Assembly (NCBI GenBank): GCA_963402885.1
Contig: OY727094.1
Span: forward strand, 4,776,501 to 4,840,500
Origin: Antedon bifida
Lineage: Eukaryota; Echinodermata; Crinoidea; Comatulida; Antedonidae
DNA: 64,000 bases
Direction: 5' to 3'
Shown: piece after piece, positions 1,140 through 38,230 of the stretch
Layout of the letters: each line of letters starts with the position of its first letter
How positions within the stretch are numbered: position 1 is the first letter of the stretch
Notes under the pieces: generated by a model
Database searches by the model: none
What the model was told of the DNA's origin: nothing
The model's input: the letters and a program-made list of their open reading frames with translations, nothing else
Translations under genes and position numbers: made by a program

Positions 1140-2984
1140 GACAAATAAGCCATGTGAACCTTTCGTCCAATTGCTTTGCTATATGACAAATATAATAAAT
1201 GTCTGGAAAAAATTGGAAAAAATGGTATATAAATATAGGTCTGTCTGATATTAGACTTTGTCCACCACGTAATGTGCGATGTCGTTTTAGAAATTCATTT
1301 GTGTCAAACTCTATTCATATTTTTAACACCGGTGTCTCTAGAATGTAATTTGTAACAATACGATTTTAACTTTTTAAAGATTTAATTTAATGTTACTGTT
1401 TATTACACTTTTTGTCATATGTCAGTCCGTTTCTGTATGTGTATCTTTTAATCGGATTTCCTGACAACCGACATTTCTTTGTTTTTGACGAAGACAATCA
1501 CATTTTTTTGTATCTTGTATCTTTATTGAAGAGAAGAGAGCTGACATTACAGAAGCTGAACTTCAAGTCGTCTTGTTTCAATCACAGTGCTTGTTTTCAA
1601 ATATGTTTATTAATATTTTTTTTTCTGTCTTTGTTAATTTGTTGATGATTTTTTTAAATTAAAGTGGTAAATGTGATTTTTGTATATTTTTTTCATATTG
1701 TTGATTCGTTTGTACCTGTTCTGAGTGTGTAAATTAAAAAATGTTTACTTTGTTGCATTTAAGGAATTTGATTTGAAGAGATCTTTTACAGAATAAAATT
1801 TAAAAATATATATTAGGCCTAACCATCGATTTTATAAAAGTTAAAAATGCGTGGCTATTACATCTTTGAAGAGTATTTGTGGTAGAAACATCCTTAACTG
1901 TAGTACAACGAATTCCGTAAAACAGCGCCATTTTAGTGTCTCAAAAGCGTCACACGTGTGACATTATTCCATGCGTATGTGGTAGGCCTACACAATTTGA
2001 CGCTGTTGCACGGTATTTGTCTATGGTACTGAACAAAATAATTGTATGTACGGTGAGAATTGGTGGGTAAATCAAATAATTAATATGAGAATAGAAAATT
2101 TGGGAGAGTAAAAGTAGACCTACTAACTAATTAAGTTTGTAAAATTCCGTTTACTTTTCAGAAATAAAATCCCCCCCCCCCCCCCCCACCCACCCACCAC
2201 GCCAAAAAAAAAAGAACAAAAGGGATTGACAACACATTCAAAAATTTTCCCGTGTCTTATAATGATTGTATAATTATTGAGCAGGCCTACTATTTCTTTC
2301 GATTTTTATTAAAAGATTATCACACCCTGAGAGGGGAGGCCCTCCCCTCTCAATTTATCCAACCCACAACCTAGTAAAAAATAAGAGCGTTAGAATAATT
2401 ACTCACAGTTGGTAGATACAAGTTTTTCCAGGCAAATCTATCTGTATTATATCACTCCCTATGTGTCTAGTATCGTCTTAACGGCTCGCTGTCAACGATA
2501 CTGTACGCGCATAACCTTTTTAGTCGCGCATCATAGACTTAATACATGACAGGGCAGAGATATTATACCTCCATCCATCATAAACTATAGAGGGCACTAC
2601 AACAATTTGAAAATTACATCAAACCATAGAGGGCTCTATTAAAAATAAAAATATATTGGCATCTATATAGTAAATATGGGTCATGGCGTGCCAATATATT
2701 ATGTGGTACCAACTAGTTAATATTTCACATATCAATACATAAATTTATTATGAACATTTATGACTTTCATTCATTTCAGATATACACAACATTACATACT
2801 ACTCATTGTTAAACAAAAATAATTTATAATATAAAATCTTTATTTTTTATATTAAATAGAATATCAATAAAATGAAAAATGTAATGAAGAAAGAACAATA
2901 ATTAAAAACTGTTAAATTAAATTTTGTTTGTAAGAAATATTTCTTTTTCTCTCGAATTTTACATCGATGGATGGTCTTACGTTG

Positions 2985-3055
2985 TTCTAAAATTTTAGGT
3001 ACCCCCCATAACAGAGTGCACCCCCTATTGAATTACAAATGACGTCACAGTCTAA
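2985..3055 (-). repeat. Dispersed monomer related to the 10-13 kb satellite
   Basis: Read on the minus strand it shows AGGGGGTGCACTCTGTTA, a GGGGTACC block and AAAATTTTAGAACAAC. The same succession appears on the plus strand at about 14396-14450 and, diverged, throughout the 10.36-13.10 kb array. It looks like a single dispersed copy of the sequence that was amplified in tandem there. Confidence 0.65.
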
Positions 3056-4344: not shown

Positions 4345-5097
4345 TTATTCATTCATTCATTCATTCTTTTATTTCGGAATCTCTGGTCCATAGAAAGTGA
4401 AAATTACATATAAATGAAATAAAATAAACAAGACTAATTACTACTACTACTGTAATCCACCTAGAGGGCATCTTCGACTTAACTAAGACGTTGCTTATAA
4501 TTGTTGAGACTAAAATATTTTCGCTTGCATTTAGTCTACCCATCAGGCCATATATTGATTTCTTGACAATTCATAAAAAGAAGGAATTCTACATTCCGTA
4601 AACATAAGGCTGACACTGCAATGTCGAGGCCTTTGTAGCAACATTCTTAAACCATTATTGTAGCATACCTGGAGAGATCGCAAGGTACCTTGATTATAGT
4701 TGCACCATAATGTAGCGCAATACATATTTACACAATATGTTCTAAATAAAACACATTTTACATTGATAGAACACATACTAAATTTTCTGACCAAGGAGTT
4801 GGCTCGGATACACAAAGATCTGTATTGCCGCTTTATATCGATAACATGACCAAGATATATGGTTGAGTCAACATATTCTAAGCTTTTGTCATTAATGGTA
4901 ATAATAGGTTTCAATTGAATCCTCTGTGATTTAGGACAGATTATCATACAAGATGATTTCTTAGCATTGTAAGCAATATCATTTTTGGCCGCATTCAGAC
5001 ATATTATACAATTAAAAGAAAGATTACAACAACAATATGAACGGTGGAGAAAGTGCACACATTTTTTCCATGGAAAGTCAGAAAGGAAACTGATCAT
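4345..5097 (-). mobile_element. 3' end of a non-LTR (LINE) retrotransposon, 5'-truncated
   Basis: The minus strand encodes the C-terminal part of a LINE reverse-transcriptase protein (about 4543-5010). Visible landmarks are a YNAKKS...MI..P segment, a YLG motif (ST-IYLG), and the thumb/C-terminal region FRTYCVNMY..LW...GTLRSLQVCYNNGLRML and PSFYELSRN, typical of the CR1/L2/Rex side of the LINEs. The frame stops after RNQYMA, and the continuing sequence (MGRLNASENI) is in another frame, so this copy carries a frameshift. The 3' end is a run of GAAT units (4345-4366), the expected simple tail. It is a dead insertion fragment downstream of the integrase gene. Subfamily uncertain. Confidence 0.8.
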
Positions 5098-5228: not shown

Positions 5229-6285
5229 CTGGCTCTTGAGGCTCTGTGATGTTATCTAATAAAAAATAAAAAAATAATAGCATAATTCAATAACATAATT
5301 AAATCTATGTACTGTAATTAACATGAACAATATCGACAATTATATTTATAAAATATTCCAACTTACCTGGCTCTTGAGGCTCTGTGATGTTATCTAATTT
5401 AAAAAAGCAAATATTAGCATAATTCAATAACATAATTAAATCTATGTAATTAACATGAACAATATCGACAATTATATTTATAAAATGTGATGTTATCTAA
5501 TTTTAAAAAGCAAATATTAGCATAATTTAATAACATAATTAAATCTATGTAATTAACACGAACAACATCGACAATTATATTTATAAAATATTACAAATTA
5601 CCTGTATCTTGAGACTCTGTGATGTTATCTAATTTTAAAAAAAGCAAATATTATAAGCATAATTCAATAACATAATTAAATCTATATAATTAACATGAAC
5701 AATATCGACAATTATATTTATAAAATATTGCAACTTACCTGGCTCTTGAGGCTGTGTAATGTTATCTAATAATAAAAAAAAAATTATAAACACAATTTGA
5801 TAACATAATTAAATCTATATAATTAACATGAACAATATCGACGATTATATTTATAAAATATTACAACTTACCTGGCTCTTGAGGCTCTGTGGTGTTATCT
5901 AATAAAAAAAAACCAAATATTACAAACATAATTACATTTATATAATTACCATGAACAATGTTTTGAATTGGTTTTTTTTTCTAAATAACAACTTACCAGG
6001 CTTTTGAGACTCTGTGATGTTCCACTTTTTTTAAAGCAAATATTATAAACATAATTTGTCGATAATATAATTCAATCTAGATAATTACATGAAGACTTTT
6101 GTATTGTATTTAAAATTTAGCAACTTACCTGGCTCTTGAGATTCTGTGTTACCTAGTTTATAAAAAAAAAAATTTAATTTGAAAAAATAACTAAATTTAT
6201 ATAATATAATAACAACCTTGACAGTTAGTTGTAATTTTAAAATAATCACAACTTACATGGCTCTCTCCAAACTCTGTGATATTTT
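5229..6285 (-). repeat. Tandem array of about nine mini-exons (27 nt, period ~130 bp)
   Basis: In transcript order the units are 6257-6285 (degenerate, acceptor AG mutated to GG), 6129-6152 (24 nt), 5997-6024 (28 nt, would shift the frame), 5872-5898, 5739-5765, 5602-5628, 5487-5497 (remnant without donor), 5367-5393 and 5229-5255. The five 27-nt copies each sit between a tract ending in TTAG or TCTAG-like acceptor and a GTAAGT or GTAAT donor. They encode nine residues, consensus DNITEPQEP, with variants such as NTTEPQEP, NITQPQEP and NITESQDT. Phase is 1 at both ends and matches the end of the integrase exon at 6427, so any number of copies can be joined in frame. Flanking intron sequence is duplicated with each exon. 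Confidence 0.85.
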
Positions 6286-9200
6286 CCAATAAAAACACAG
6301 GGAGATATTATAAAAATAATTTAAATGAATAATTAGGAAAATATCATTAACACTTTGTAATGCGAAATTTCGCTTTAGAAATTATCCAACTACGGTAAGG
6401 TAATCGTATCGCTGTGGTGAACTTACTTTCGGTGAAAATGTTGGCATAGTCGACATTTACGACTCTAACCCTCTTTTCATCTGTAACGGTCAAGACTTTG
6501 CCATTAACATCTAAAACTTTAAAGGGTCCTGTAAAATTAGGACCAAGTTTTTCGCCCTTTATGTTCCGCTTTCTCTGATTGCGGACGAGCACTTTCATGC
6601 CGGCTGTTATCGGCGTACCAACAGTTTTCTTCACACTCTTCCTGACTTGTGCCGATTGTTTTTGTTGAATGTTCCTTAAAACCTGCTCCTTTGTAGTTTT
6701 TACCTTCGTTTTTATTGCTGCCTGGTTTTGTTCCGTCGGCATTGACGTTTTTGGTATGTCTGATAGCTATCATAATGGAAAAAGATGACATTCACTAATC
6801 AAAAAAATGTGTAAATAGGCCTAATGCAAAAGTTTGGTGTTAAAAGGGAGGTTTCGCAACCTTACGAATACGATAACGAAAACGGATACGTCATACATTT
6901 GTGAAACTTTTGAGCTGATCCCCATTTCATATTCGTAAAGCGTATTCGTGTTGACGAATATCACCAGTCATATTCGTAACTACAAAACGAGTATAGTTTT
7001 TGATCTATTTTGCACATTTTGCATTTGAATTAGGAATGATTCATGATTATAATATAATTATAGATTTATTGAAAGTAATTTACTAAAGTAATTTACTAAA
7101 ATGCCAGATCAATTTAGATAAATAGCAGTTTTTAAAGTCCTCACTCGCTCCCCAGTTACGCTAGGCCTAGGCAGCCAAGCACCAAGCAACACGTACCTGC
7201 GCTTCGCTCAAATTTACCGCAGTCATATTTTGGACGCGCCTCGATATTTCGTTGCCATGCGAAACAGATTTTTTGATGGCTTACGAAAACGAATACGTGT
7301 GCGTGACGTATCTGTTTTCGTTATCGTATTCGTAAGATTGCGAAACCTCTCTATTATCAAAATAGGACCTTCTTACCCAAACCAGGTCCTCATCAGTATA
7401 TTCCGCAGGTATTTTTGGTTCGCGGTTATACAGTAAAAAAAATGGAGAATACTTTGTAGTTGTTTGGATTTTCGTATTTAACGCAAATACGGCCGCATCT
7501 AGATACGACTCCCAATCGTCTTGATTGTCATTAACTAATTTGCTCAAACATCTGAAATAGACAAAATAAAGAAAAAAAAACATTGTGGCTTGGAGTAGAA
7601 AACATCTTAATGGTGTCTAGAAAACTAAAATCTATAAAACTAAGACCTAAGATATCTGAGTTTGCTAGAGATATCGTAGGTCTTAGTTTTCTAGATCCGA
7701 TGATGGGTGTCTAGAAAACTAAGATCAAGAAAACTAAGAATAAAGATATCTTAGTTTTTTAGATCCAGAAAAGAATTGACAAAAAAGATTTTTTTTGTCA
7801 AGGGTAATGTATTTTTAGTGACTTTTTAATTGTTTTAATTAGACAACAACAATTTAGATTTTCTGTTTGGATAGACAAATAGTATACATTATAAATTATA
7901 ACTATTTTATCCAGTGGTTTTACTAATAGTGCTAAAAGTACTACTTAGTAATAAATATTCAGTGATTCATTTAATAATTTGCTTGCTTCTTGTACTTATC
8001 TATATTTATACAAACAGGGTGATGAAATATGTGAAAAATTGTTACTTTTTGTTTGAGTTTACTCCTGTCCTGTCTACATTCACAACACACACACTCATAT
8101 AATTATTATTTGGTACCTGATTTAGTCAGTACAATTTTGCACATGTACTTATCACCGCTATCACAAATAAATTAATATTAAATAATTTGAAATTAATCTG
8201 CCCAATTACTAAAACAAAAAGAATAAATAAATAAGAAAGTAATAGTACTGTATTTTAACTTGATTTGTAAGAAAATAAATGGAGGATAGTAATACCCATT
8301 TTTTCATAATATTGTATTGTATAAATTCACTAAAAATGGTACAATCGCCCATTAAAAAATCGTAGTTTTCTAGATCTAGAAAACTAAGATATCTTGGTTC
8401 TTAGTTTTCTAGATACCCATCATTGGATCTAGAAAACTAACACCTAACATATCTTAGTTTTCTAGAAAACGATATGTTAGGTGTTAGTTTTAAGTTATGC
8501 ATTACAATTCTTTGGTTTAAAGTGTGTTTTTTTTGTTACTTACTGTTTTATTTTTTTGTTTGTGCTCTCGTCCAGTCCGTTTGTCTGCGGGTGATAGGCT
8601 GTTGTCTTCCTGTGTTCGATACCCAGGATACCATACAACCGTTTGTTTACCTTACACAACAAAATTAATATTTGAAAATTATATATTTTAAATAAAACTT
8701 AATGAAATACCCACAATTGTTTTTAATGTATCGAATTAAAAGAAATCAATTTACTTTAACGAAAAAAATTGGAAATACTGTTTATATCTTATCACGACGT
8801 ATCTTATTTCTTAATACAAAACGTTATGGATATAAATCGGTGTTAATTAATAAACTGATAAAAGCATTACCTCGTTAACAAATTCTCTACCGTTGTCACT
8901 AATAACAGTCTGAACAGCACCATGCCTGTAATACACCTTTACAAGACATCTGGCAACGTGCTCGCTTGTTTTGTTCGGGATGATCATGGCTTCACACCAT
9001 TTTGTGAAATAATCAGTGGCAGTAAAGATGTATTTTTTTCCACCACCTGCTACTTTGTATGGGCCCATCAAGTCGATACCCATCATTTCAAAAGGACCCG
9101 TAACCTTAAAGAAAATTAATATATTACAAAAGTTTCAAAACAACCTATAATATTAAAAATGTCATGTAATCATAAGTTCAACTTTAGTAGGCTTACAAAA

Positions 9201-9943
9201 TGCAAATGTAGGTCTGTTTCTAAAAAAAATCATACTTTAGATTTATACGTACCTCAATAGGTTGAACTTGTTTTGCCACAGATTTAATTTTTTCACTTTT
9301 CTGGCATTTCTCACATTTCTTTATCTGATTTATAAAAAGTTGTGGACAGTGGCAATACATAAAAAAAGAAAAACATCTTTAGATAGAGCTATAGTAATAA
9401 TTTTATAATATTATATATTTCCTTACTTTAAAATACCTACCCAATTTTTTATGTCAATGGTTTGCCCTGGCCAATAAAATCGTTTACAAACAAATGCAAC
9501 TGTTTTGTTTTGGCCCTGATGGCCACCAGACGGCAGATCATGAGCTTCCCTTAAGATTTCTTTGATTTCTGAACGATCTTTAATGCAGCGTGATGTTCCA
9601 CCATCTTTGGTTTTGTGATAGAGGTAGTCACCTGCCAACAAACAAAACAAAACATTTATAGATCCATGCTATTATAACAGCCTGGAATACAATTCCCGAC
9701 AGAGAGAGGGGGTGGGGTGGGGGTGATATAAATTCAAATTGTTATTTTGGCTATTAATTAAAGTTTTATAACGTCTATTGTCAATTTGGTTCGCCTTGCT
9801 AATTACAGCGTAAGAAAAAAAAAGTTACCTTTTATTTCAAAAAGCTTGGCCTTTCTCCTCAAGAGGTTTTTTGCCGTTTTTGTGTATTCTGGTGGATACT
9901 CACCACTAAAGATATACTTGAAAATAGGTTCGTAGTCTTCCAT
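5229..9943 (-). CDS. Spliced integrase gene (GINGER/KRBA2/GIN1-like) with C-terminal mini-exon array
   Basis: Seven coding exons, all with GT-AG borders and matching phases: 9829-9943, 9441-9631, 9253-9324, 8871-9104, 8544-8650, 7377-7551, 6427-6766 (411 residues plus one base). The start MEDYEPIFKYI matches the N terminus of KRBA2-like proteins. The zinc finger is H69, H76, C106, C109 (HDLPSGGH ... CEKC). The catalytic triad is D137 (GIDLMGP), D196 (SDNGREF) and E232 (YHPQTNGLDE), spacing D-x35-E. A VLVRNQRKRN...GPNFTGPFKV segment follows in the SH3-like C-terminal domain. The last exon ends in phase 1 and is followed by tandem phase 1-1 mini-exons. No RT, RNase H or gag is present, which fits GINGER DNA transposons and their domesticated relatives better than a Ty3 retrotransposon. 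Retention of the exon 7 intron would end the protein about 27 codons later. The true 3' end is not found. Whether it is a host gene or a transposon is unresolved. Confidence 0.88.
6848..7349. mobile_element. Inverted-repeat DNA element inside the integrase gene
   Basis: The ends are inverted repeats of about 45 bp beginning GAGGTTTCGCAA and containing TTACGAATACGATAACGAAA, about 500 bp apart. The element lies wholly in the intron between integrase exons 6 and 7. The interior repeats CGTATTCG-type words. No protein is encoded. A target duplication could not be identified, so the superfamily is open. Confidence 0.75.
7613..8497. mobile_element. Fold-back element with many TCTAGAAAACTAAGA blocks
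   Basis: Two clusters, 7613-7772 and about 8358-8497, carry the word TCTAGAAAACTAAGA or its complement ten or more times in alternating orientation, often joined as GATATCTTAG or TAGATC palindromes. About 590 bp of AT-rich DNA separates them. It occupies the intron between integrase exons 5 and 6 without damaging either exon. It could be a fold-back (Foldback/Galileo-like) element or a locally grown hairpin repeat. Confidence 0.65.
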
Positions 9944-9959: not shown

Positions 9960-10360
9960 ATGTGACGATCGTCTGACTTTTAATCCGTTATATACCAGTT
10001 ATCTAAATGATTCATCGACCATCAAGGGATTTGGCGGTTAAACTTGATAAACGTAATTTCTTGTCTGTATGATAAATTACCTGAGTAACATTGTTGGACA
10101 GGAGGGACCACAGTGAATTTGGTTTACAGTTACATTTTTTTTAGAGCTGCTGCCTTTCAAAATAAAATAGAAAGTGGTAATGTTTTAGGGTGGTCACTAG
10201 CTTCCTCATATTCAAGACACACCATCAAATATGAGTTTTTAGTCGCGTGGACGACTCTATAGTTCACTATGTCGGTCGGTCGGTCGGTCGGTCGGTCGGT
10301 CTGGTATCACTATGCGTTTTAGCACGCGACTTATGGCAGTTGGCCTTGTTAATGATAAAT
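9960..10360. other. Region upstream of the integrase gene, with (GGTC)n microsatellite
   Basis: This covers the likely promoter side of the minus-strand integrase gene. The only clear structure is an uninterrupted run of about eight GGTC tetranucleotides at 10271-10301, preceded by TCGCGTGGACGACTCTATAG, which looks like part of a dispersed repeat. No further exon was recognised. Confidence 0.5.
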
Positions 10361-10361
10361 T

Positions 10362-13101
10362 ATACGGAGTGCAATCTGTCACAGGGGTGCATAACATTCT
10401 AGGCAGTCCGTAATATATTGCACCCCTATAATAGATAGTAAATTAACTGTTATTATAGGGGGTGCAATCTGTCACGGGGGTACCTAATATTCTAGACAGT
10501 ACGTAATATATTGCACCCCCTATAATATAGTTATTATCCTGTTATATTATAGGGGTGCAATCTGTCACGAGGGTACCTAATATTCTAGACAGTCCGTAAT
10601 ATATTGTATCCCCTAAAATAGATAGTAAATTAACTGTTATTATAGGGGTGCAATCTGTCACGGGGGTACCTAATATTCTAGACAGTCCATAATATATTGC
10701 ACCCCCTATAATATATAGTTATTAACTGTTATATTATAGGGGGTGCAATCTGTCACGGGGGTACCTAATATTCTAGACAGGCCATAATATATTGCACCCC
10801 CTATAATATATAGTTATTAACTGTTATATTATAATGGTGCAATCTGTCACGGGGTACCTATTATTCTAGACAGTCCATAATATATTGCACCCCCTATAAT
10901 ATATAGTTATTAACTGTTATATTATAAGGGTGCAATCTGTCACGGGGTACCTATTATTCTAGACAGTCCATAATATATTGCACCCCCTATAATGTATAGT
11001 TATTAACTGTTATATTATAAGGGTGCAATCTGTCACGGGGGTACCTAATATTCTAGATAGACAGTTCATAATGTATATTGTATCCCCTAAAATAGATAGT
11101 TATTAACTGTTATATTATAGGGGTGCAATCTGTCACGGGGGTACCTAATATTCTAGACAGTCCATGATATATTCTATCCCCTAAAATAAATAGGTATTAA
11201 CTGTTATATTATAGGGGTTCAAATCTGTCACGGAGGTGCATAATATTCTAGGCAGTCCGTAATATTGCACCCCTATATCATATCAGTTATTTTCTATATT
11301 TCAAATTTTTCTTATTCAGATTTTTAGTCTTATATAATTAATTTTACTTTTCTGTTTTTGTTAATAAAATAAATAAATAAAATATAATAGATAGTAAATA
11401 AACTGATTTTATAGAGGGTGCAATCTGTCACGGGGGTACCTAATATTTTAGACAGCCCGTAATATATTGCACTCCCTACAATAGATAGTAATTAACTGTT
11501 ATTATAGGGGGTGCAATCTGTCACGGGGGTACCTAATATTTTAGACAGCCCGTAATATATTGCACTCCCTACAATAGATAGTAATTAACTGTTATTATAG
11601 GGGGTGCAATCTGTCACGGGGGTACCTAATATTTTAGACAGCCCGTAATATATTGCACTCCCTACAATAGATAGTAATTAACTGTTATTATAGGGGGTGC
11701 AATCTGTTACGGGGGTACCTAATATTTTAGACAGCCCGTAATATATTGCACTCCCTACAATAGATAGTAATTAACTGTTATTATAGGGGGTGCAATCTGT
11801 TACGGGGGTACCTAATATTCTAGACAGTCCGTAATATATTTGTAATGTATTGATCTTGATTAATATTACCAATTATTTATACTTCCTTCACCTGTTACCA
11901 TATATATTATGTTAACCCTTGGCTACTTATGGTCACTAATGGCTAAAGTAGACCCTCTGCTGAGACCACTAAACATTCCACCTTGACAGATTAATTACCC
12001 TGTTATTATATAGTAGATGTAGAATAAAGAATAAACATTCAGCTTTCAACTTCTCTTTCTCTCTCTCACTTATTTGTATTAAAAACCGGTACATTACAAT
12101 ATTGCTGCACCTCCTATAATAGATATAACTGTTATTATAGGGGTGCAATCTGTCACGGGGGTACCTATTATTTTAGACAGCCCGTAATATATTGCACCCC
12201 CTATAATATATAGTTATTAACTGTCACGGGGTTACCTAATATTTTAGACAGCCCGTAATATATTGCACCCCCTATAATATATAGTTATTAACTGTTATTA
12301 TAGGGGTGCAATCTGTCACGGGGTACCTAATATTCTAGACAGTCCATAATATATTGCACCCCCTATAATAGTTAGGAAGTAACTGTTATTATAGGGGGTG
12401 CAATCTGTTACGGGGGTACCTAATATTCTAGACAGTCCATAATATATTGCACCCCCTATAATATATAGTTATTAACTGTTATATTATAGGGGGTGCAATC
12501 TGTTACGGGGGTACCTAATATTCTAGACAGTCCGTAATATATTGCACCCCCTATAATATAGTTATTAACTGTTATATTATAGGAGTGCAATCTGTCACGG
12601 GGGTACCTAATATTCTAGACAGTCCATAATATATTGTATCCCATAAGATAGATGGTAATTAACTGTTATTATAGGGGGTGCAATCTGTCACGGGGGTACC
12701 TAATATTTTAGACAGCCCGTAATATATTGCACCCTCTATAATACATAGTAAATTAACTGTTATTATAGGGGGTGCAATCTGTTACGGGGGTACCTAATAT
12801 TTTAGACAGTCCGTAATATATTGCACCCTCTATAATAAATAGTAGGCTAAATTAACTGTTATTATAGAGGGTGCAATCTGTTACGGGGGTACCTAATATT
12901 TTAGACAGTCCGTAATATATTGCACCCCCTATAATATAGTTATTATCCTGTTATATTATAGGGGGTGCAATCTGTCACGGGGGTACCTAATATTCTAGAC
13001 AGTACGTAATATATTGCACCCCCTATAATAGATAGTTATTAACTATTATATTGTAGGGGGTACAATCTGTCACGGGGTACCTCTGACAGTCCGAAATATA
13101 T
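10362..13101. repeat. Satellite array of ~93-bp nested-hairpin units (about 27 copies)
   Basis: Each unit runs TATAGGGGGTGCAATCTGTC, then GGGGGTACCTAATATT, CTAGACAG, and ATTGCACCCCCTATA, followed by an AT-rich spacer with TTATTAACTGTTAT. GGGGTGCAAT pairs with ATTGCACCCC and the inner CTGTC pairs with GACAG, so every unit can form a two-level stem-loop on either strand. Neighbouring units differ at a few positions and by single-base length changes in the G runs. The array is broken at 11284-11400 by AT-rich DNA and at 11841-12098 by a solo LTR. Some units in 11.4-11.8 kb are nearly identical, a sign of recent local amplification. No coding potential. Confidence 0.92.
11841..12098 (+). mobile_element. 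Solo LTR (258 bp) with 5-bp target duplication
   Basis: The element starts TGTAATGTATTG and ends CCGGTACATTACA, so it has TG...CA ends inside short inverted repeats (TGTAATGTA / TACATTACA). It carries a polyadenylation-like AATAAAGAATAAAC near its 3' side and a CT-rich stretch after it. It is flanked on both sides by ATATT (11836-11840 and 12099-12103). The uninterrupted satellite units read GTAATATATTGCACC at exactly this place, so the empty site is known and the 5-bp duplication is certain. This is a single LTR left by recombination of an LTR retrotransposon (Ty3- or BEL-type size of duplication). Confidence 0.9.
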
Positions 13102-14240
13102 TTATTCTTTTATTGTATTATTAACTAGGAGTGAATCAGACGTTCGAAAAAAAAAATAAATATACAATAATAATTCAATTCAACTTTTATTTTAGACAAA
13201 CTTTCCATAGCAACAAATGAAATGACAGTACATTTGATTCTGTATCCATAACAACTAAATTATAATAAATTATTTATTGAAGTGAAGTGTGAAGTTTTCT
13301 GTGGTCCATCAGTTACACCGTCTGTTATCTGACGAATTAGGAATATTATTAATATTATCATTATAATAAACAAGTAAAGATATAGGCCTAACCTTTTAAT
13401 ACAAGAACTACAATATAGTAGGTTTATTATAGTAAATTATTCTGTATAGTAAAATACCAGTTGATTTCATTGGGTACGTAGACTACTTATCTAGCCCGAA
13501 AAATTATTATCGTATCCTCCTAAATAGGCCTACTAACAGTTATTCCAAGGTGTATGGGTCACGGGTGGGCCTCCAAATAGCTGTGTATCCCCATATTATT
13601 ATATTTCTCTAAACGTGTGTGATGCCTTTAATGTTTTGGGCCTGGTTCCTGTTCAATTGGCGTGTGTCCGATTTCCTTCGTAAAATAAAAAAAAACAAAA
13701 AAAAACAATAATGTTATATGGGCCTAAAACAACTTCAGATTAAACATATCATCACAAATCATATAATATATTATAGATAAAATTAGGAGAGCGCTAGGGT
13801 GCTTAGAACAGTGCTACTAACATTCAAATCAAAGTCATTGATTTATATAAAAAATAAACAGTAGGCATATACTGTATAACCGTAGTATAGGGCATGACTT
13901 CATTAATTATTAATAAATAAATAATAGTGAATAATCATTGTATCATAAATGTATAGGCTATATAGTCCAAGGATCGAGTACAATACAAAGACAATTACTG
14001 AACTGAATAAGAGATATAAATGTGCATATATAATATATTATTATTATATTTATAACAGAGAACTATAATAAAAGTGGGACGAACCCACACAAGACAAAAA
14101 AAAGACAATTACTGAACTGTTGTGGGTTTCAGTGACATGATCTCAATGGATACAAAATAAAATAAAGAAAAAGGTAAATCAAAACGATAAAGTAACAGCC
14201 AGAACATTTAGCAGAGCTTTTGGAAAACACTACGCCTTCA
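13102..14240. other. AT-rich intergenic DNA, no gene seen
   Basis: No conserved protein segment, RNA gene or clear transposon end was recognised. The last part (about 14138-14240), with TCTCAATGGATACAAAATAA, resembles the word found in the 70-bp repeats at 16.4 and 56.1 kb. Confidence 0.5.
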
Positions 14241-14241
14241 T

Positions 14242-14450
14242 CAAGTAGGGGGTGCAATTTGTCACGGGGTACTGAAAATTTTAACTAAGCTAAAATATTC
14301 TGTATCCCGGAAAAGAAGCGAGAGTTAGTGATGCATAAAATTCGTTGAATAAACATAAAGTAGGCGGAGCATGCAACCCGTTACTGTTGTAATTCGATAG
14401 GGGGTGCACTCTGTTACGGGGGTACCTGAAATTTTAGAACAACTGTTACG
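14242..14450 (+). repeat. Two dispersed monomers of the hairpin-satellite family
   Basis: GGGGGTGCAATTTGTCACGG at about 14248 is followed by a diverged tail. A second start, AGGGGGTGCACTCTGTTACG, lies at about 14399 and is followed by GTACCTGAAATTTTAGAAC. The second matches the reverse-strand copy at 2985-3055 more closely than the array units. Confidence 0.65.
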
Positions 14451-15628: not shown

Positions 15629-18600
15629 ATGGGTGAACAACATAAGACTGTTCTGAATATAGGATGTGAAGAAGAACTGGTAAGGAATTTCAGATGCTAA
15701 TAATTCACTCTCTGTCTACACAGATCAAACTAAGTTTGACAAAGAAAAGTGTGATGTGCCCAAATATAGTATAGTAGTGATATGATGTTATCATGTCCAT
15801 ATATGGGCACATTACATTTTTGCAATCATGAACAATAACAAATGCCAAGCATCATGTTGAGGGTCTTCCAATAGTAAACTCTCAGGTGACACCCCCATCT
15901 ATAAGGGGACACTTTCCCATGAAAAAAACTTGGGTCAACATGTGTTGACTACAGCCAACACCATCCACTATTCAGAGGACTCAGTAGAAACTCTAATTAA
16001 GGAGAAACTGTGTTTGTAAGATTCATATTTTATAATCATTACGGCACCCGAACAAAAAAAAATAAACAGAATTAAAATTAGACATCTAATATATGAAGAA
16101 TAACCCATATCAAAAATTATTCATTTACTGGCATTTTAGAAGTTCTACTGTAATTAATTTAAATATATGATACTCTTTGCAGGAGTGTAGAGGCTACCGC
16201 CTGACTCAAGGGAGATGGTTACTCTCTGTGGTGCTAAGTGTTCTGACTCTGGGTGCGCTACAGCTAGTCTTCTACTGGAGAAATGATTGGCGTGTTCTTT
16301 TTACGTGTTCGCAGTGCTCACTTAAAGACGCACAAGTAGTGTTACTTCATGTAAGATTGAATATTTAATTTCTATTATTATATTATTATTTATTAATCAC
16401 AAGCCAAATTATTGAAAAAATCACAATGCTGTGCTTATCAGTGGCTGGATATCAATGGAGATACAAATAAAATAAGGACTGAAAGAATGACAATGCTGTG
16501 GGTATCAGTGGCTGGATCTCAATGGAGATTCTGTACAAATAAAATAAGCACTGAAAAAATGACAATGCTGTGCATATCAGTGGCTGGATATCAATGAAGG
16601 TACAAAATAAAATAAGGACTGAAAAAATGACAATGCTGTCACGTATCAGTGGTTGTATATCAATGGAGATACAAGTAAAATAAGCACTGACAAAAATGAC
16701 AATTGTGCAAAGCACTGTCTACACTATCAAACTTTATGTGACAAAAAAAATGTGATGTCACCACCATATTTGGGCACATCACACTTTTTTTGTCAAACTA
16801 GTTTAAACGAGCTTAACGCTAGCCCTTCCTCAGTGCAATATAGTTTTTTATATGGATTACATTGAATTATTAAATTGTATACTCTTTTAGAATAAATTTT
16901 ATCAAGTTTTTCCAGCAGAGGTCAAAACCATTTCACTCAAAGACAGTTTGGAACCTTACATTCACCAGATAAGGTAATGGATATGGTTTGATTGTTCCCC
17001 AAAAACATGAAAAATGAAGATTAATTAAATCAGACTTTGAATAGGCCATTTTGCATTTAATAAAGTTATTCTGTTTAAAAAAAATAATTATTTCACATAT
17101 AAAAAGACAAAAGAAAAATCATAATTTTAACCAAAAACCATTGTCTGACAATTTAAGTACTTGTTTTCAATAAATAAAATCCACAATATACAAAATTAAG
17201 ACATCGATGGATTTACTATTAACAGCCAATCAAGATAAATGATTACAGTATTATTTTTAATATGTTTCAGGCCTACAAAGCATTTTGACAATCAAGACAT
17301 TGGGCCTGGTGGAGACCCATATCTTGACTCTACTGAACATAACACAAGCAGCTCATATTCGGATAATGACATTACCTACCAGGAGACTGACTTACTTATT
17401 AATGATGTTTCAGAGAAACAGGTAATGTACTGCACATACTGTGAATATCAGATCAAAGAATAGGATCACCCCTTAAATTACAGCTGTGCACATGGAATAA
17501 ATTCACCAGTGTAGCATAGCAAAAACCTATAAACTACCTTACTGCTACAGTAAGTACTGTACACATTTATAAAATTGTACAGTATATCAAAAAACACAAC
17601 ACAAAACATATTTACACAAAATACAGCTTGATTAGTAATATTGCACACTTAACATTTTTCGCTGGGTATACAGTACTGTATTATCTTCAGTAGCACAGTA
17701 TACATCGAATGTACTATTGCACGCCATGTGACCCACAATCATCCAATAAAATGACAGAAATTTATTTTGTTGTATACTATACTATTGAAGTGAAATTCAA
17801 TATACTCTTGCATTTTCAAACCTTACAAATACACACCACATAAAAAATCGAGCTAAATGCAGTCTAGAGCAACAGATGGTATGTTATTTAATATTTTGCA
17901 TTGTTTGTTCTGTTCATACAGTATCTACTGTATACAGTACAATTCAGCCATTTTTAATTGAACAAACAAAGAAAAACACATACAAAGAAAGGAAGAATAT
18001 ACTGTTAATGTATTGGCATTTTTGCCATGTAAAATAGTTGATTTGCAGCATTCTTCATAAGCACATACAGGAAATATTGTTGTTAGAAAAACAATACAAA
18101 ACTTGCAATGTCAGCTTATAAGTCTTTTGTTTTACACAATCCAAGGTCATCAAAGCAAAACTGCTCTCAATGTCATAAATAAGGCAAACACATAAAGTGC
18201 TACATGTGTACATTACTGCATCTAATCTATACCCATATCTTGGAGTGGAGTTGTGACTTGGTGGTTATGATACTTGGCTACCAATTCCAGAGTCCTGGGT
18301 TCAAGTCATGCCAGTTTCAAATTGACAATTATAACTCCACTCCCAAATACTTGTAATAAGGAAATATAAATTGGTATCAGTTTTCACAAACATTTGAACC
18401 CAAATGAGACTTTTCCATTGTTACCAACAGACACGCCATCTTGTTTATATAGAGTATCTTACATATGTTTGTCTTGTGGAACAGGATTGCTACCTTCAAG
18501 AAGGATAGTAAAATGAATTCGCTTATGGTTATCCTTGGCAATTTGCCTAAATTTAAAAAAACAAAAAAATATATATAAAAGCAATACTGAATTTACTTTT

Positions 18601-21600
18601 CTTTTTAGTTGACTGATCACATGGTATACTTTGAGCACCAGAAAGTGAAATATATATGGAATAATTTTAAAGAAGATTTTGAACGACTAAGTGCCTTTGA
18701 CGTGGACACGCCATGTTCTAGTTTCAACACCGACTCTAATGGAATTAACAACAATGAACAGAAAAACAAGTAAAGCTCTGTCTACGCTATCAAACTATTT
18801 CATAATATAAAACTTTAAACCTCCTTTACCTAGGAAGAAAGGAAAGCCTTGCTTTAGAGTTCTGTCTACACTATCAAACTTTATGTAACAAAAAAATATG
18901 ATGTGCCCATATATGTACATGGTGATGTCATATCACTACCACATTTGGGCACACCACTACCATATTTAGGCACATCACATTTTTTTTGTAAAACTATTTT
19001 GATAGTGTAGACAGAGCTTAAAGTGTTTGTCACAATCTATGTTGTTTTGAATTTTCACATTTTTCACGCCTGTGTAATAATTAAAACAGATGTGATGCAT
19101 GTGTCTGTACTATTTTCAGTCATCAATTATCTTAATGCTTCATAAAATTAGCATTTGAATTTGTTTACTTCTCCAGTAGTAAGTTTATAATGGTGAACCT
19201 GCACTGAAAAACCCTTAAACCCTAATACTTGTTTGACTTTGTTTATGTAGATAATTTTTATGATAGAATCTGTTGTGTATGTTGTCCTATTATGGATTGT
19301 ATCAGGAAAAGTAACAAAAAAAGTTGTCTTTTGGAATTATCTTGGCAATTGTGTCTAGTACTGTAACCAGGGATGTCACCATGGTGGTCGACGATGGACG
19401 GCGCCCCGTCCATCACTCAGAATTTCCAACCACCATTTTCATGACGCCGACCACCACTCATGACATGCTGGTGACATCCCTGTGTAACATAAATTTGAAT
19501 GTTCCCCCCCCCCCCCACCCCTCATAATCTGTCAATCCATATACTAGCCCCGCCTCCACCCCTGGTGATGCTAATACTCTTTTTTGCTATACTTTCTTTT
19601 TTCTAGGCAAATTGTGTATGGCTATAATGATATTGATGTTGAAGTTAAAAGCTATGGAAAACTACTAATAGAGGAGGTATTCATTATTTAAATTCTTAAC
19701 TTTTAACACATGTTTTTTAAATTAAATCTTATATGAGGGTCAGGTTGTTTTACTGACAGGCAAAATTTGAGGATGGTTAATTATTAGCCCTGTTCTTTTT
19801 CCTATGGTCAAAAGATTTAACCGCATTTTCTGGATCAACCCATATAATTTGTATTCTTGTATCGTTTCGAATTTAGATTCTATTTTTTTTTTTTTTTCAG
19901 GTGTTGAATCCGTTTTACATATTTCAAATCTTTAGTGTAATTCTTTGGTTCTTTGAGGCTTACTATTACTATGCAGTCTGTATCATAGTAATATCTGTGA
20001 TATCTCTAATTATCTCACTCTACGAAACACATAAGGTAAGTACTGAATTATTAATGTTAATTGCTATTATTATGCGGCCTGCTTAAGTGTGATATCTTTC
20101 ATTAATACAAAACACATAAGGTCATACTGAATATTTTAAATAAATTGATTTTTTTTTCACCCTCATCAAATATTTACAAAAATAACAAAATAAATAAATT
20201 AATGAAAATACTGTTGACTCTTTGCTAACTCACAATGTCCAGTTAAAAGAAAGACTAATTTTCAGAAGATAAATAGCCTGAAATTTTCTTATTATTTCAT
20301 TTATTTTATACAGCAAGCTGTAACATTGCGGGACATGGTGGCCCAGAATAGCATCGTAACAGTTCAAAGGTCAAATGGTAAGTTCCAATATGAAATATAA
20401 ACCTATTTTTATTACACTTTATGAACGCATACCTTTGTTTGATTCAGTAATTGATACAGTAGGGGGAAAACAGTAGAACCTCTATTAAGGGGACACCTTT
20501 GGGAACCCATCATAATTTGTGTAGGCAGTAAACTTAAAGATGTATTGTCCCCAAAGACATGAAAAATGAAGATTAAATTACAGTGGTTTTTTGGGTCCAG
20601 TTTTTGGTCAAAGTTATTAAACTATTATGTGACATTAAAATGGCATATTCAACAAAAACATTTTTAAAAAAAAGTTTCACGGAGAAAATACATCTTTAAT
20701 GCTATCAACCATTACTGAAAGATTATATAATATATAATCTGTTTTGGTTTAGACTTTAAAATGGCATATTTAACAAAAACATTTTCATAAAAAAATGTTT
20801 TCAAGGAGAAAATACATTTTAATGCTATCAACCATGACTGAAAGATTATATAATATATAATCTTTTTTGGTTTAGACTTTAAAATGGCATATTTAACAAA
20901 AACATTTTCATAAAAAAATGTTTTCAAGGAGAAAATACATCTTTAATGCTATCAACCATGACTGAAAGATTATATAATATATACTCTTTTTTTGGTTTAG
21001 ACTTTAAAATGGCATATTTAACAAAAACATATTCATAAAAAATGTTTTCAGGAGACAATACATCCTTAAATCAATCAACCATGACTGAAAGATTATATAA
21101 TATATACTCTTTTTTTGGTTTAGACTTTAAAATGGCATATTTAACAAAAACATTTTCATAAAAAAATGTTTTCAGAGGAAAATACATCTTTAATGCTATC
21201 AACCATGACTGAAAGATTATATAATATATAATCTTTTTTTGTTTTTTTTTTATAATTTGTGACTATTTCTATTATTATATTCCATCATGCAGTTGTGTCA
21301 GAGATTAATAGTAAAGAGCTTGTTCCCGGTGACCTGTTACTGATCCCTCCAAATGGCTGTATGATGAGCTGTGATGCTGTGCTTGTAGCTGGCAACTGTA
21401 TAGTCAATGAGAGTATGCTAACAGGTACAGACAAGCTTTGTGATTGGTTGTCTACTAAGTAGAATATGTTTGTATACATTCCACATAGAGTAGCACTGTA
21501 CTCTGACGTCATGGTACTGTGTCACTGCCTATATTGCTATACATCTCACTGCCTATATTGCTATGCATCTCACTGCATATGTTTCCATGCATCTCACTGC

Positions 21601-24600
21601 CAGACTTGATATTGATTCACCAATCCACTTAAAAATTTCCCTTAAGTGGTACTCATTTAAATAGGTAAACTTAAGTTGGTTTATCGAAAGTTACATTTTT
21701 TATGCAATATTAATAATTATTTTGAAACAAGATGAAATTTTTCAAGAATGTAAGTTGTAAAGTCTTATTCTAAAGCCTGAATGGTTACGATTACAGTCCT
21801 TTATCTATAAACCACAAAATTCTAACAAGAATTTCTCGTGTACTATTATTAATTAATGTAGTAGAACCTTATGTATATAACCCATGAGATTTATACTATA
21901 ATTGTAGGCGAAAGCGTTCCTGTGACCAAGACACCACTACCTAACCCACCGGGTTGTAATATTCCCTACTCACCAGACATACATAAACGTCACACATTAT
22001 TCTGTGGTACACAGTTGATACAGACCAGGTACTATGGCGGAGAAAAGGTGTGTGCTATTGTTTCTAGAACAGGTAAGAGAAAGAATTGTTATACCATTGG
22101 AAAGTCCTTATATTATTAAGTGATCAATCTTTTGTACAGTAGGTACTTTTATAAATAGTGATATTATATAATTTTAAGCTTAGCATGGTTGCACCATGTT
22201 TTAGAAAATGATTTTATTGTCAATAACCACCAAACATAAAAGAGTTATAATATAATTTGTCAACATAGGTTTTGAGACTGCTAAGGGGGAGTTAGTTCGT
22301 TCAATCCTCTACCCTAAGAACATTGGATTCAAGTTCTACAAAGATGCTATACGCTTTGTCATGGTGCTTGGATGCCTAGCAATTGTTGGTCTCTTGTATT
22401 CAATTCCAGTTCTGATGAAAAATAATGTAAATATTTTTTTATTTATTTATACAGTAGGAGTCCAATCCAGGGTAGTCCAATCCAGGATAGTCCAATCCAG
22501 GGTAATTCAATCCAGGATAGTTCAATCCAGGGTATTCCAATCCAGGGTATTCCAATCCAGGGTAGTTCAATCTAGGGTAGTTCAATCCAGGATAGTCCAA
22601 TCCAGGATATTCCAATCCAGGTTAGTTCAATCCAGGGTAGTTCAATCCAGGGTAGTCCCATCTAGGGTAGTCCCATCTAGGCTAGTTCAATCCAGGATGG
22701 TCCAATCCAGGGTAGTCCGATCCAGGGTAGTCCGATCCAGGGTAGTCCGATCCAGGGATTTATATATAGGTTTTCACTAGCCATGAAACAAAGATTGTTC
22801 TCCACTAGGTGCATTTATTCTTGTGAAATAAATGAGAATGTTACTTTGATTTTCATAAATAGATTTGTCTGGTGGAAAACTTAATTATGAATTGTTACGC
22901 AGTATCAAGATTTACAAATTTAGAAAGTGTATTACCATTTTTTTCCTAGGCCCATGTAAAAGACATTATTTACAAGGCACTAGATGTGATCACCATAGCT
23001 GTTCCACCAGCACTACCAGCTGCTATGACGGTTGGTACCATCTATGCACAGTCACGCTTGAAGAAGGCTGGTATCTTCTGTATAAGTCCTCAGAGAATTA
23101 ACATGTGTGGAAAGTTGAAGCTCATATGTTTTGATAAGGTTTGTGAATAACCTGTCTGGCAGCCTAACTGTGCTAAATTGCATTCAATTTCTCCTCTCCA
23201 AAAGCTATGTCTACACTATCAAACTAGTTTGACAAAAGAAGTGTGATGTGCCCAAATGTTGGTGGTGTTATGCTTAAATATGGTATGACATCATCATGTC
23301 CATATATGGGCACATCAAATTTTGTTGTCACATAATGTTTGATAGTTTAGACAGAGCCTAAGAGTACCTTAATGTTCACTAAACAGCGCTCATTTATCTG
23401 TCATTTGTTGAATTAAAGCAATTTTTCTATGCCCCTTTTTGTCATAATTTAACATTTAAAAGTTTGTCATTAATAACTGCAATTAGATATTAGATGTGTG
23501 GTAATCGTTTTAGGGTCGTAAGGTCACCAAATAACTTTTTCTGTTGGTGAATTTTGTCCAGCACTGTCGCAGAAAGGATAAAAGCTTCGGATCTGTTCTT
23601 TTGCATATTTTTTATTGTTTATTCTGTATTATGATTTAGATATTAATATGTATTTTTTAAAGACTGGAACACTGACAGAAGATGGGCTGGATATGCTCGG
23701 TGTAGTGCCACTACAAGATGATCACTTCCTGCCACTTATTCAGCATGCTGATGAACTGCCTCGTGGCCCCTTCCTTGCATGTATGGCAGCCTGTCATTCT
23801 TTGACCATCATAGAGGGTAAAATCACTGGAGATCCTTTAGATTTGAAAATGTTTGAAGCAACAAAATGGGTATGTGTCATAGAACAGATTGTAAACTCTC
23901 CAGATAATGGCGATAGTCTCCCAATATTTCATGTCATTTCTCACTCTCATGCTAAAATACAATATTCACGACATTTTCTGCCGTTGGTATGCTATGAAAT
24001 ATCCATGTTTACTATTATAGATGCCAACATCCTTCCATTTTTTATATAGCACCCTAATTCATTTGAGGTAATTTTCAAATTATCATAGCGCCCTTCTATG
24101 GTTATGACATGCTTTTAAAAATCCTCTCGATATTTCAGTTTGGAGGTCTGAGATTGACACCCATGTTATGACTAAAATGTTTAGGTTCTTTCCTATTTAG
24201 GTGTACACTTTGAAAAACAAAAATGCAGTTATTCAATAATTTCTTGCAGATCTTAGAGGAGCAGGGTCAAGACGATACGACCAAATATGGTAACATGATG
24301 CCAACCGTTGTCAAGCCAACCACAACTGAAACGTATCTCCCACAGAATACAGAGCAGGTATAGTTTACTTTGTTCATCTCTCAAATCTTCTATGTAGTAT
24401 TAAGCTCTGTCTACCCTATCAAACTAGTTTGACGAAAAAAGTGTGATGTGCCCAAATATGGTAGTGATATACCCAAATATGGTAGTGATATAACATCATG
24501 TCCATGTATGGACACGTCACATTTTTTTGTTACATAAAGTTTGATAGTGTAAACAGAGCTTTAGAATTTAATCTGAAGTTGACAGTGGTTTTTCTGTCAA

Positions 24601-27600
24601 AATTTTACATTTCAATGAATTGGTATCGTTACACAGTATTTCTCAATTCTACAGTTGCCTTATGAAATCGGAATAGTAAGACAGTTCCCATTTTCATCCA
24701 ATCTTCAAAGAATGAGTGTTATCACTCGAACACTTGGTGCGAAAAACATGGACGTTTACGTGAAGGGTGCCCCTGAAATGATTGCTTCACTGTGCAATAA
24801 ACAAACAGGTTTGTTTTACTTTGTTTCCTGTAAATGTTTGTATTTTGTTTTACTCCAACTGGTTTCTGGTAAGATTTGTTGAGAATAACCATTACAAATA
24901 TTATTTTTTTTAATTGTTAAATCATTTTTAAATGTTATTTTTAGTTCCTATGGACTTCCATTCAACGTTACAAAGTTACACTCAAAAGGGTCTTCGTGTA
25001 ATTGCTCTTGCATGGCGCCCTCTTAGTCAGAAAGTGTCTTGGCGTCGCATTCAGAAATTACCAAGGTATAGTTACTTTTTATTATTATTATTATTTTACT
25101 GTAAACCCAAAAATATTAAATAAGGCCTACAAAAGTTAAACTATTCAAATATGATTATGATGACTAATCTTTAACAGATCAGAGGTAGAAAATGACTTGA
25201 CATTCCTAGGCCTGTTGATTCTACAAAATATGCTGAAACCGCAATCCACACAGGTCATTCATCAGCTGAGAGAGGCTGACATTAGGACTGTTATGGTGAC
25301 AGGTAGAGCCTAACTTTCAACATTATTTTTTATTATTTTTATTTAAAAAATTGATTGACTAGTCTAGCGCTGTATTGTGTGAAGAAGATTATTCAATTTT
25401 ATTTATTTCACTTTCTTATGTTTGTGTTTATTTTACTTGAGGGCCCCTGAATATCAACTCAGCACCAGTATTAATTTGTCCAGCTGGAAGGGTTACCCTC
25501 TATAAATAAAGTTGAAATAAAAACTTATGTTTACTCTATCTAATAAGAACAGTTATTTATTATCATGTATTTATTATTGTCTTTTATGTCATTTCTTGTC
25601 TAATCTGGGCAAATATATTCGAGCGAATTAAACATTCCTGATCTCTGATTGGCTGTGCATCACAAAATAGATTGAAATATGCATTGATGCTTTTGATTCA
25701 CATGAATAAATTCGACTAGTGGAAAACAGACTTTAAAAAAGTTCATTATTCATGTCCACACAATATCAGCCACTGTCAAACACAGCCACTGTGCAATTGG
25801 GACTGGACTGTGTTTACCACCTGTTGGTCCCCATCCTTCATTAATGTACATACATCTTAGTGAGAAGTTGAATAAATAAATATCATGGTAAACTAATCTG
25901 TTTCAGGTGACAATATGTTGACTGCTATAAGTGTTGCCAGAGAATGCGGTATGATTGATCCCAATTCTAGTGTAGTGTTAGTGACTGCTTCTCCACCATC
26001 ATCTACATCTCCTTCTACCATTGAGTGGTCGTACGATGTCCCGCCACAAAACAAAGGAATGCAAATAGAAAATGGTTTCCCTAAACAAGTAAGTTGTCCA
26101 CTAGAGAGACGAACTTTGACACAATCAGCTCAAAACCAATCAACCATGAAGAGTGACCATCAAATATGATCATAATACTGCCTTACCATGATAGCAAAAA
26201 TAAATAAAAGTCATATCTATTGACATATGAGTATACTTTTTTTCAGATTTCTTTTTACATTGGACAATGAATATAATATTTAGTATCTTATTGTTTCAGA
26301 ATTTGTACCAGTATCAAAAACTTCCCACTCCATCTACCAACTTTCATTTTGCAATAAACGGCAAATCATTTGCTGTCATCAAGAACCATTTTGCGGATGT
26401 TATGCCCAAGGTAAGAAAACAAATGTTCTTTTACGATTTTTAGGATAAATAATTTAAATTGTGGGTACAAAACTGCTTTTCATGAACCAACCTCAAATAA
26501 CAATTTAGAAGAGATAGGGCTATACCAGTTATATACGACTATGCGATGGACATTGTAGGATATAGCATGTATACTTCAGTATTCTTTGAATTTCTATAAA
26601 AAAAAAAACTGCAATCAAATCCACATATTTCTTATTTCTACTATTCAGTGATTTTAGCCACAAGAAATAAAGTGGTGTCTGTTCACACCACTTGTTTGTC
26701 AAAGGCTTCTGTCAAAAAGTGTGAGGTTGAAAATTTAACAACCGTACTGGCTACGGCCCTGCTATTCATTACTGTATATATGTCTATATATTTTATCTAT
26801 GATAGATTATACAGAAAGGAACTGTATTTTCAAGAATGTCACCTGACCAAAAACGACAGTTAGTGGAAGCTCTTCAAGAACTAGGGTAAGAACTAGCACA
26901 CAGTTTTATTTCCATATTTTAAATGTTACAAATTTTATCTGTATGTCATGTTGAAATAGTTATTCAATTAATGTGTATTTTTCTAGGTATGGTGTTGGAA
27001 TGTGTGGAGATGGTGCAAATGATTGTGGCGCCCTCAAGTCAGCGCATGCTGGAATATCACTGTCGGAAGCAGAGGCTTCGGTGGCCTCGCCATTTACATC
27101 AAGCATTCCGAACATATCGTGCGTTCCGATTGTTATCAGGTACATACCAACTTTGTGCGTTCAAATTTATATGCCAAGTTGCACAGTGTTGCCCATGTCA
27201 AAAGCTCTGTCTACACTATCAAACAAACATTAATTAAGGCTTGTCAAGATCATGTTCGTGTACTATCGCATTTAAATCTGCCTTGAAAACTCATCTTTTT
27301 CTTTCAGATTGAGCTCTCTCATACACCGCGCCTTTGATCACTTACTGCTGGAATTGGCGCGTTACAAAATCGTACTATTATTATTATTATTAAATATTAA
27401 TGTTTTCATTTTTTTTTTCAGAGAGGGTAGAGCAGCTCTAGTTACATCATTTGGTGTATTCAAGTATATGGCCCTCTACAGTATAATACAGTTCATTTCT
27501 GTCATGATTTTATATTGGGTAAAGAATTGTATCTTTGTTTAACTTTATGGGAAACTTAATATAAAAAAATAATAAAATATAATGATGATAATAATAATAT

Positions 27601-32795: not shown

Positions 32796-35562
<2,767 letters not shown>

Positions 35563-37320: not shown

Positions 37321-37655
37321 TTAGTGGAGGAATTTTTTTTCTGATTTATTTCTTTTTTTACTTTTATTGTCAGAAAAAGTTCAACAAAAAATGTATATAA
37401 TTTACAAACGGTGATAAGTTGTAGTTAATAAAACTAATCAAAGCTTAACAGCAACCAAAAGTAACCTATTCAAGCTAGTAAAAATTAATGACAAATACAA
37501 ATAACTACAACAAAAAACACACACAAATAGTATAAATTTTTAAAATATTTATATAAAATTGTTTTAAATATGATAAATGTGAAATGAGTAAAAGTAGAAA
37601 AAGAAATGAGTCTACATTGATAGCAATATTGACTGAACCCCAAAAAAACATAATA

Positions 37656-37672
37656 TGCCGAAACCCGGGATT

Positions 37673-37722
<50 letters not shown>

Positions 37723-37728
37723 TTCGGC
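37656..37728 (-). tRNA. tRNA-Phe(GAA), array copy 1
   Basis: 73 nt including discriminator A. Minus-strand order: acceptor GCCGAAA, box A TAGCTCAGTTGG, anticodon arm CAGACTGAAGATCTG with GAA, box B GGTTCAATCC, acceptor TTTCGGC. All stems pair. Downstream on the minus strand lies a T-run (complement of CAAAAAAAC at 37641-37649) suitable as an RNA polymerase III stop. Identical to copies 2, 4 and 6. Confidence 0.97.
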
Positions 37729-37827
37729 AGCTTACATAACTAATGCTGTAGGCCTATACATTGAAAACAATATTATATTATCGTAGAACAAAATGTATGT
37801 TTTAAACAAAAAATAAATGTTGTTGGA

Positions 37828-37844
37828 TGCCGAAACCCGGGATT

Positions 37845-37894
<50 letters not shown>

Positions 37895-37900
37895 TTCGGC
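37828..37900 (-). tRNA. tRNA-Phe(GAA), array copy 2
   Basis: Same 73-nt sequence as copy 1, starting 172 bp further along. The spacer is also conserved (GTAGGCCTATACATTGAAAA and ATTATATTATCGTAGAAC), so gene plus spacer were duplicated together. T-rich stop signal present downstream on the minus strand. Confidence 0.97.
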
Positions 37901-37997
37901 AACTGACATAATTAATGCAGTAGGCCTATACATTGAAAACAATATTATATTATCGTAGAACAAAATATGTTTTAAACTAAGAATAATTGTTGTTGGA

Positions 37998-38069: not shown

Positions 38070-38163
38070 AACTGATATAACTAATGCTGTAGGCCTATAC
38101 ATTGAAAACAATATTATATTATCGTAGAACAAAATTATGTTTTAAACAATTGTTGTTGGTGGA

Positions 38164-38180
38164 TGCCGAAACCCGGGATT

Positions 38181-38230
<50 letters not shown>

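Follow-up and report, generated by a model that had tools for sequence, protein, structure and literature searches.

A tandem array of candidate mini-exons behind an integrase gene assigned to the Ginger1 clade in Antedon bifida

Behind the last exon of an integrase gene in the crinoid Antedon bifida, on the minus strand from 6284 to 5229, stand nine tandem units, each made of a very small core and an adjoining intron. Positions refer to the window, by which we mean the whole 64,000-nucleotide stretch of DNA that was analysed, and the array was read from one allele. The tandem array is real beyond doubt. We propose, and rate as somewhat more probable than the reverse, that the gene is a Ginger1-clade integrase in which a linker exon of 27 nt was copied together with its intron to nine units, the copies being includable in frame.

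The Integrase Gene

The gene runs from 9943 to 6427 on the minus strand, and its seven exons keep 411 codons open without a stop. The exon borders were set from AG and GT sites together with homology, and the exon sizes range from 72 to 340 nt, as follows.

9829..9943, minus strand: integrase exon 1, with the start codon; exits in phase 1; border from a GT site and homology
9441..9631, minus strand: integrase exon 2, in which the H2C2 finger starts; exits in phase 0
9253..9324, minus strand: integrase exon 3, with the remainder of the H2C2 finger; exits in phase 0
8871..9104, minus strand: integrase exon 4, core with D137 and D196; exits in phase 0
8544..8650, minus strand: integrase exon 5, core with E232; exits in phase 2
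7377..7551, minus strand: integrase exon 6; exits in phase 0
6427..6766, minus strand: integrase exon 7, with a GPF motif near its end; exits in phase 1

The predicted protein contains an H2C2 integrase finger (Pfam PF17921, E = 2.2e-20) and an integrase core (PF00665, E = 3.8e-14). The DDE triad is intact, with D137, D196, and E232 aligning with the residues of relatives, and the sequence TGPFKV encoded by exon 7 aligns with the GPY of relatives P0005, P0008, P0011, P0018, and P0020. Ahead of the finger, YP, F, and YLY stand at the place expected for YPYY, as judged by eye in a region to which few relatives extend. The first-pass annotation had spoken of a transposase-derived integrase gene; the open frame and the triad bear this out and support the prediction that the gene is intact. 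When the donor of exon 7 is ignored, the reading frame stops 26 residues later. It follows that a complete protein can be encoded without the mini-exons.

Organization of the Array

The cores of the nine units start 103 to 138 bp apart, in agreement with the earlier count of about nine copies at a spacing of roughly 130 bp. Their positions are as follows.

6257..6273, minus strand: unit c1, donor CAT/GTAAGT retained, acceptor lost
6129..6152, minus strand: unit c2, predicted 24-nt mini-exon with a 3-bp deletion and both borders
5997..6024, minus strand: unit c3, 28 nt, acceptor weak, frame broken
5872..5898, minus strand: unit c4, predicted 27-nt mini-exon
5739..5765, minus strand: unit c5, predicted 27-nt mini-exon
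5602..5628, minus strand: unit c6, predicted 27-nt mini-exon, donor GTAATT
5487..5496, minus strand: unit c7, core shortened by a deletion, donor absent
5367..5393, minus strand: unit c8, predicted 27-nt mini-exon
5229..5255, minus strand: unit c9, predicted 27-nt mini-exon, the last of the array

Across the array, TRF reports periods of 103, 133, 138, 240, and 373 bp, with a top score of 1092. Inspection core by core confirms the earlier description of five cores of exactly 27 nt and one of 24 nt, all six bordered by AG and GT and all in phase 1, the phase in which exon 7 exits. The three other copies are decayed, also as described: c3 has 28 nt, c7 is without a donor, and c1 has lost its acceptor. 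Because the copies descend from one unit, their matching phases are inherited and count as a single observation. We therefore rejected the treatment of five matching phases as five independent pieces of evidence. The chance that a core length is divisible by three is about one in three.

Splice Signals and Conservation of the Cores

Five of the six perfect CAG/GTAAGT donors in the window, both strands included, are in the array, with 0.39 expected from base composition. The donor is perfect in five cores and scores 8 of 9 in three more; the seven donors of the integrase gene itself score 6 to 8. Conservation was compared over seven units, c1 not being aligned and c7 having been dropped. With columns taken as independent, core plus donor columns are 0.907 alike against 0.775 for intron columns without the T tract (permutation p = 0.00065), and the core alone is 0.880 alike against 0.764 for all intron columns (p = 0.0066). 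Tests on pairs of an old and a young unit, which overlap one another and make the same assumption about columns, gave p < 0.05 in five of nine cases; none of the three pair tests with c3 was significant (p from 0.067 to 0.25). In c5, c6, c8, and c9, the four youngest units, the core (0.907) has no excess of conservation over the intron (0.949, p = 0.88). We read these comparisons to mean that the older copies retained their splice signals and that the newest may be drifting.

A hand count of changes in the core gave seven nonsynonymous and three synonymous, a near-neutral ratio. This count suggests that the mini-exon peptide is under little or no amino-acid constraint and is free to change. 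The founder unit was, we infer, very probably a functional exon.

Growth of the Array

The introns preceding c6 and c8 are identical at 91 of 93 positions, though these units are not adjacent. For neighbouring units the identity is 88 of 93 (c8 and c9) and 83 of 94 (c5 and c6), and the 240-bp TRF period spans 5245-5726. The likeness of the c6 and c8 introns, taken with the 240-bp period, fits a duplication of two units at once besides the duplication of single units. Growth by unequal exchange of a whole exon unit had been suggested at the outset. The part of that suggestion that the comparison supports is that intron and exon would have been copied together; unequal exchange or slippage is the putative mode of duplication, a mechanism deduced from the pattern of the copies.

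Predicted Tail and End of the Array

The introns between adjacent cores, from c2 to c6 and from c8 to c9, measure 98 to 111 nt and could, at this length, be recognized across the intron. Since the mini-exon is symmetric, entering and leaving in phase 1, any intact copy can be skipped or included with the frame kept. Possible candidate tails would have up to five DNITEPQEP-type nonapeptides and one octapeptide, and would be rich in Pro, Glu, and Asn. Such a tail is most likely a flexible spacer with little amino-acid constraint. When the donor is left unused, c4, c6, and c9 reach a stop directly after GKL or GNL. A scan past c9 gave seven pyrimidine-rich acceptors, with phase-1 frames of 3 to 13 residues, and no convincing terminal exon; the poly(A) signal AATAAA is absent between c9 and 4373.

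The Clade and the Linker Region of Relatives

A tree of 69 rows places the integrase in a group of seven (98/97), together with two Ulp1-bearing fish proteins, one protein from Tegillarca, one from Pelobates, and two unnamed proteins. A wider group of 16 (99/92), to which it also belongs, contains all four rows labelled Ulp1 and none of the 21 labelled RT, which separates it from integrases of the Gypsy type. The labels were assigned by us: RT denotes a row with listed domains of reverse-transcriptase or RNase H type, and the Ulp1 label of P0011 was given for its likeness to P0008, Pfam finding Ulp1 in P0008 and P0020 and not in P0011. Because of this grouping and the GPF motif, we assign the integrase to the Ginger1 clade, an assignment by sequence in a tree made without a named Ginger1 reference.

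A script found tandem peptides in four of 120 relatives. In three of them, the repeats occupy the linker that follows the integrase region: P0008 has six units of a 13-residue peptide, P0011 has 12 units of a 13-residue peptide, and P0020 has a tandem peptide of 19 residues. The fourth, P0092, has a short acidic repeat of five residues. An alignment of P0008 with P0011, 711 columns long and with 77 gaps, gives 74% identity; the two differ in the number of repeat units. A comparison of tail repeats among relatives, which the first-pass annotation had called for, is thus informative about unit number, six against 12, and about position, which in these three linkers is the same as that of the array; the peptide sequences are others. 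A further difference is that the repeats of P0008, P0011, and P0020 are known as one stretch of protein, whereas here they would come from separate candidate mini-exons.

The C-terminal part of the integrase with the tail had no relative at E ≤ 1 among 937 candidates, in a search that is insensitive, since it also missed other GPY/F proteins. No Ulp1 or OTU sequence was found downstream: in a tblastn search with the 120 relatives, all 356 matches were inside the integrase gene, and the nine downstream frames held no such domain, their lone weak match being to DUF4620 at E = 0.56, below the cut-off. A search of viral contigs for relatives gave five pattern matches, none of which was confirmed.

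We suggest the following course of events. In relatives, the linker beyond the last integrase exon leads to a Ulp1 protease, and this linker would be prone to tandem peptide repeats. Here, its starting point would have been a single genuine exon of 27 nt, bordered by a strong acceptor and a perfect donor. The intron-plus-exon unit would then have been copied by unequal exchange or slippage, at times two units together, until there were nine. Each intact symmetric copy would be optional, giving a Pro/Glu/Asn-rich tail with a variable number of nonapeptides. It is tempting to go further and to picture a transposase, its catalytic residues intact, in which splicing of a repeated symmetric mini-exon determines how long the tail is. 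One locus would then make a ladder of enzymes identical but for a disordered spacer, and that spacer would evolve as entire exon units are gained or lost; we consider this extended proposal unlikely as a whole. If true, a transposase linker could grow and shrink by whole exon units with the frame preserved, which would provide a natural ladder of spacer lengths.

Comparison with Known Systems

Ginger1 transposases have an H2C2 finger, a DDE core, a GPY/F motif, introns, three of them at conserved positions, and a distinct region after GPY/F (Bao et al. 2010, PMC2836005). As far as the accessible part of that source goes, the locus has in common with them the finger, the core, GPY/F, introns, and a separate stretch following GPY/F. 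It differs in that Ginger1 has OTU or Ulp1 domains and a CCGG/CCGT duplication, neither of which was found here, and the same part of the source mentions no tandem mini-exons.

Genes derived from Ginger1 are also known in hosts. The sections available on Imagin, an integrase gene with introns in malacostracan crustaceans, describe the amphipod form as having a low-complexity repeat at its end, predicted to be disordered (PMC12863088). Unlike our locus, Imagin has lost the DDE triad, and the amphipod form is also without the integrase core; in those sections, its repeats are not described as tandem exons. The vertebrate genes GIN1 and GIN2, likewise derived from Ginger1, have six to eight introns; GIN1 is said to retain its catalytic residues, and GIN2 is without the triad (PMC3424704, PMC2836005). 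These are vertebrate host genes, and no exon array is mentioned for them in the accessible portions of the two papers. To that extent of the sources, the intact triad sets the locus apart from both GIN2 and Imagin.

In small exons, the array resembles the micro-exon genes of schistosomes. In these, the frame is preserved whether a small symmetric exon is used or skipped, and the protein varies accordingly (PMC4350168, PMC10526429). The likeness is partial. From what is accessible of those descriptions, schistosome genes encode secreted parasite proteins, have mostly diverse small exons, and have no transposase attached. In genes of the schistosome type, most of the coding sequence is in small symmetric exons, whereas here only the tail is, and no signal peptide was seen by eye in the integrase protein. 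Tandemly repeated exons of 81 bases were reportedly described by Davis et al. in 1988, to judge by the title.

The first-pass annotation knew of no such amplification on a transposase-derived integrase. Given the repeats of P0008, P0011, and P0020 and the end of amphipod Imagin, as described in the accessible text, a repeat tail on such an integrase is not new. The narrower statement stands: within the literature surveyed on small and tandem exons, on Ginger and GIN genes, and on schistosomes, most of it outside subscription journals and judged by the titles and abstract openings listed, no tandem mini-exons in a transposase gene are described, and the feather-star genome papers surveyed have nothing on a mini-exon array. 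What is new in relation to this literature is the combination, in which the linker of a transposase would have been amplified by entire mini-exon units. The linkers of P0008, P0011, and P0020 and the end of amphipod Imagin may be tied together with the array by a hint that repeats grow after GPY/F.

Alternative Explanations

Alternatively, the transposase gene might be old or silent and the array a minisatellite located in its last intron or 3′ flank. The founder unit would have contained an exon, or something resembling one, but the copies would stay unspliced, and the protein would end 26 residues past exon 7 or not be made at all. We hold this to be less likely than not. In its favour, the young cores drift at the pace of the intron, the hand count gives no amino-acid constraint, three of the nine units are broken, a stop lies 26 codons beyond exon 7, no terminal exon was found after c9, and repeats have probably been inserted into the gene. 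A minisatellite does not, however, account for the strong donors and acceptors retained in six units, nor for the better preservation of core and donor than of intron in the older units, and a perfect donor 27 nt past a good acceptor is unlikely to arise by chance.

The frames of c4, c6, and c9, which stop four codons past the core after GKL or GNL, raise the question of whether the units are copied terminal exons. The sequence GTAAGTTG would then be coding, the protein would end in DNITEPQEP-GKL-stop, and each transcript would use one unit. The failure to find another terminal exon agrees with this, but in five units GTAAGTTG forms a perfect donor, the frames of c2, c5, and c8 continue further, and a transcript ending there would lack an AATAAA as far as 4373, so that we judge copied terminal exons improbable. 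More improbable again, to the point of being a marginal candidate, is that the units are repeats near the end of a transposable element, preserved because the transposase would bind them and not because they are exons. Inverted repeats do surround the gene and the arrays, and a 93-bp satellite upstream includes part of them; the array, however, shares no match longer than 35 bp with the satellite or the arms, and the conserved part of the unit is the splice-bordered core. A linker exon copied with its intron remains our preferred reading.

Mobile Element or Host Gene

An inverted repeat of 58 bp encloses the gene, as follows.

2981..3038, plus strand: left arm, 58 bp, a possible element end
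14387..14443, minus strand: right arm, 93% identical to the left arm

The repeat starts with GTTGTTC and surrounds both the gene and the arrays. Ginger1 transposon ends, in contrast, are inverted repeats of about 40-270 bp that start with TGTNR. Directly at the outer ends of the 58-bp repeat there is no target duplication; TTACG occurs at the left end and again past the right end, three bases out, a match seen by eye to which we give no weight. No matching pair of ends with a CCGG/CCGT duplication of 4 bp was found around the gene. A 93-bp satellite lies upstream of the gene at 10359-13102, and about 43 bp of each of its units is common to the 58-bp repeat. The enclosing position of the inverted repeat and its partial presence in the satellite hint at a putative element of 11.4 kb bounded by the repeat. 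A Ginger1 transposon in the strict sense was considered and, with neither a CCGG/CCGT duplication nor a downstream protease domain, is not established.

Of 129 relatives, 120 were listed, most of them unnamed; no crinoid name is among those listed, in a database that has proteins of Antedon and Anneissia, and the best-scoring relative is 41% identical. The lack of a named crinoid relative leans toward a gene that is, or recently was, mobile. Inverted-repeat insertions at 6838-7359 in intron 6 and at 7612-8492 in intron 5 resemble small non-autonomous elements, and these repeat-rich insertions lean toward some age of the gene. As GIN1 reportedly keeps its catalytic residues, the triad alone cannot decide between a mobile element and a host gene.

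Neighbourhood of the Locus

Just behind the mini-exon array, the segment 4351-5100 is what we take, by eye, to be the probable end of a non-LTR retrotransposon. Its part 4351-4623 is 72% like 34899-35185, and the segment gave no confident Pfam match.

On the other side of the integrase gene, the plus strand carries an ATP13A3-like polyamine-transporter gene at 15629-30910. The best match of a query joined by hand, with approximate borders, is the polyamine-transporting ATPase 13A3 of Antedon mediterranea (91%). That protein, P0121, aligns with the window in 26 pieces, which range from 58% to 100% in identity and of which 19 reach at least 83%, for 1168 of 1397 positions overall, the pieces of low identity partly overrunning exon ends. 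The identities point to a host closely related to A. mediterranea, though probably of another species. A 15-bp minisatellite of 19.9 copies at 22459-22757 lies beside an exon of this gene, within a long open frame that encodes VQSR-type repeats.

Farther along the window are a tandem array of five tRNA-Phe (GAA) genes at 37655-38548, repeated every 167 bp or so, and frames with cadherin repeats on the plus strand at 51620-52845, presumably from a calsyntenin. An interspersed repeat of about 170 bp occupies 968-1141, and many other copies or parts of it are present across the window.
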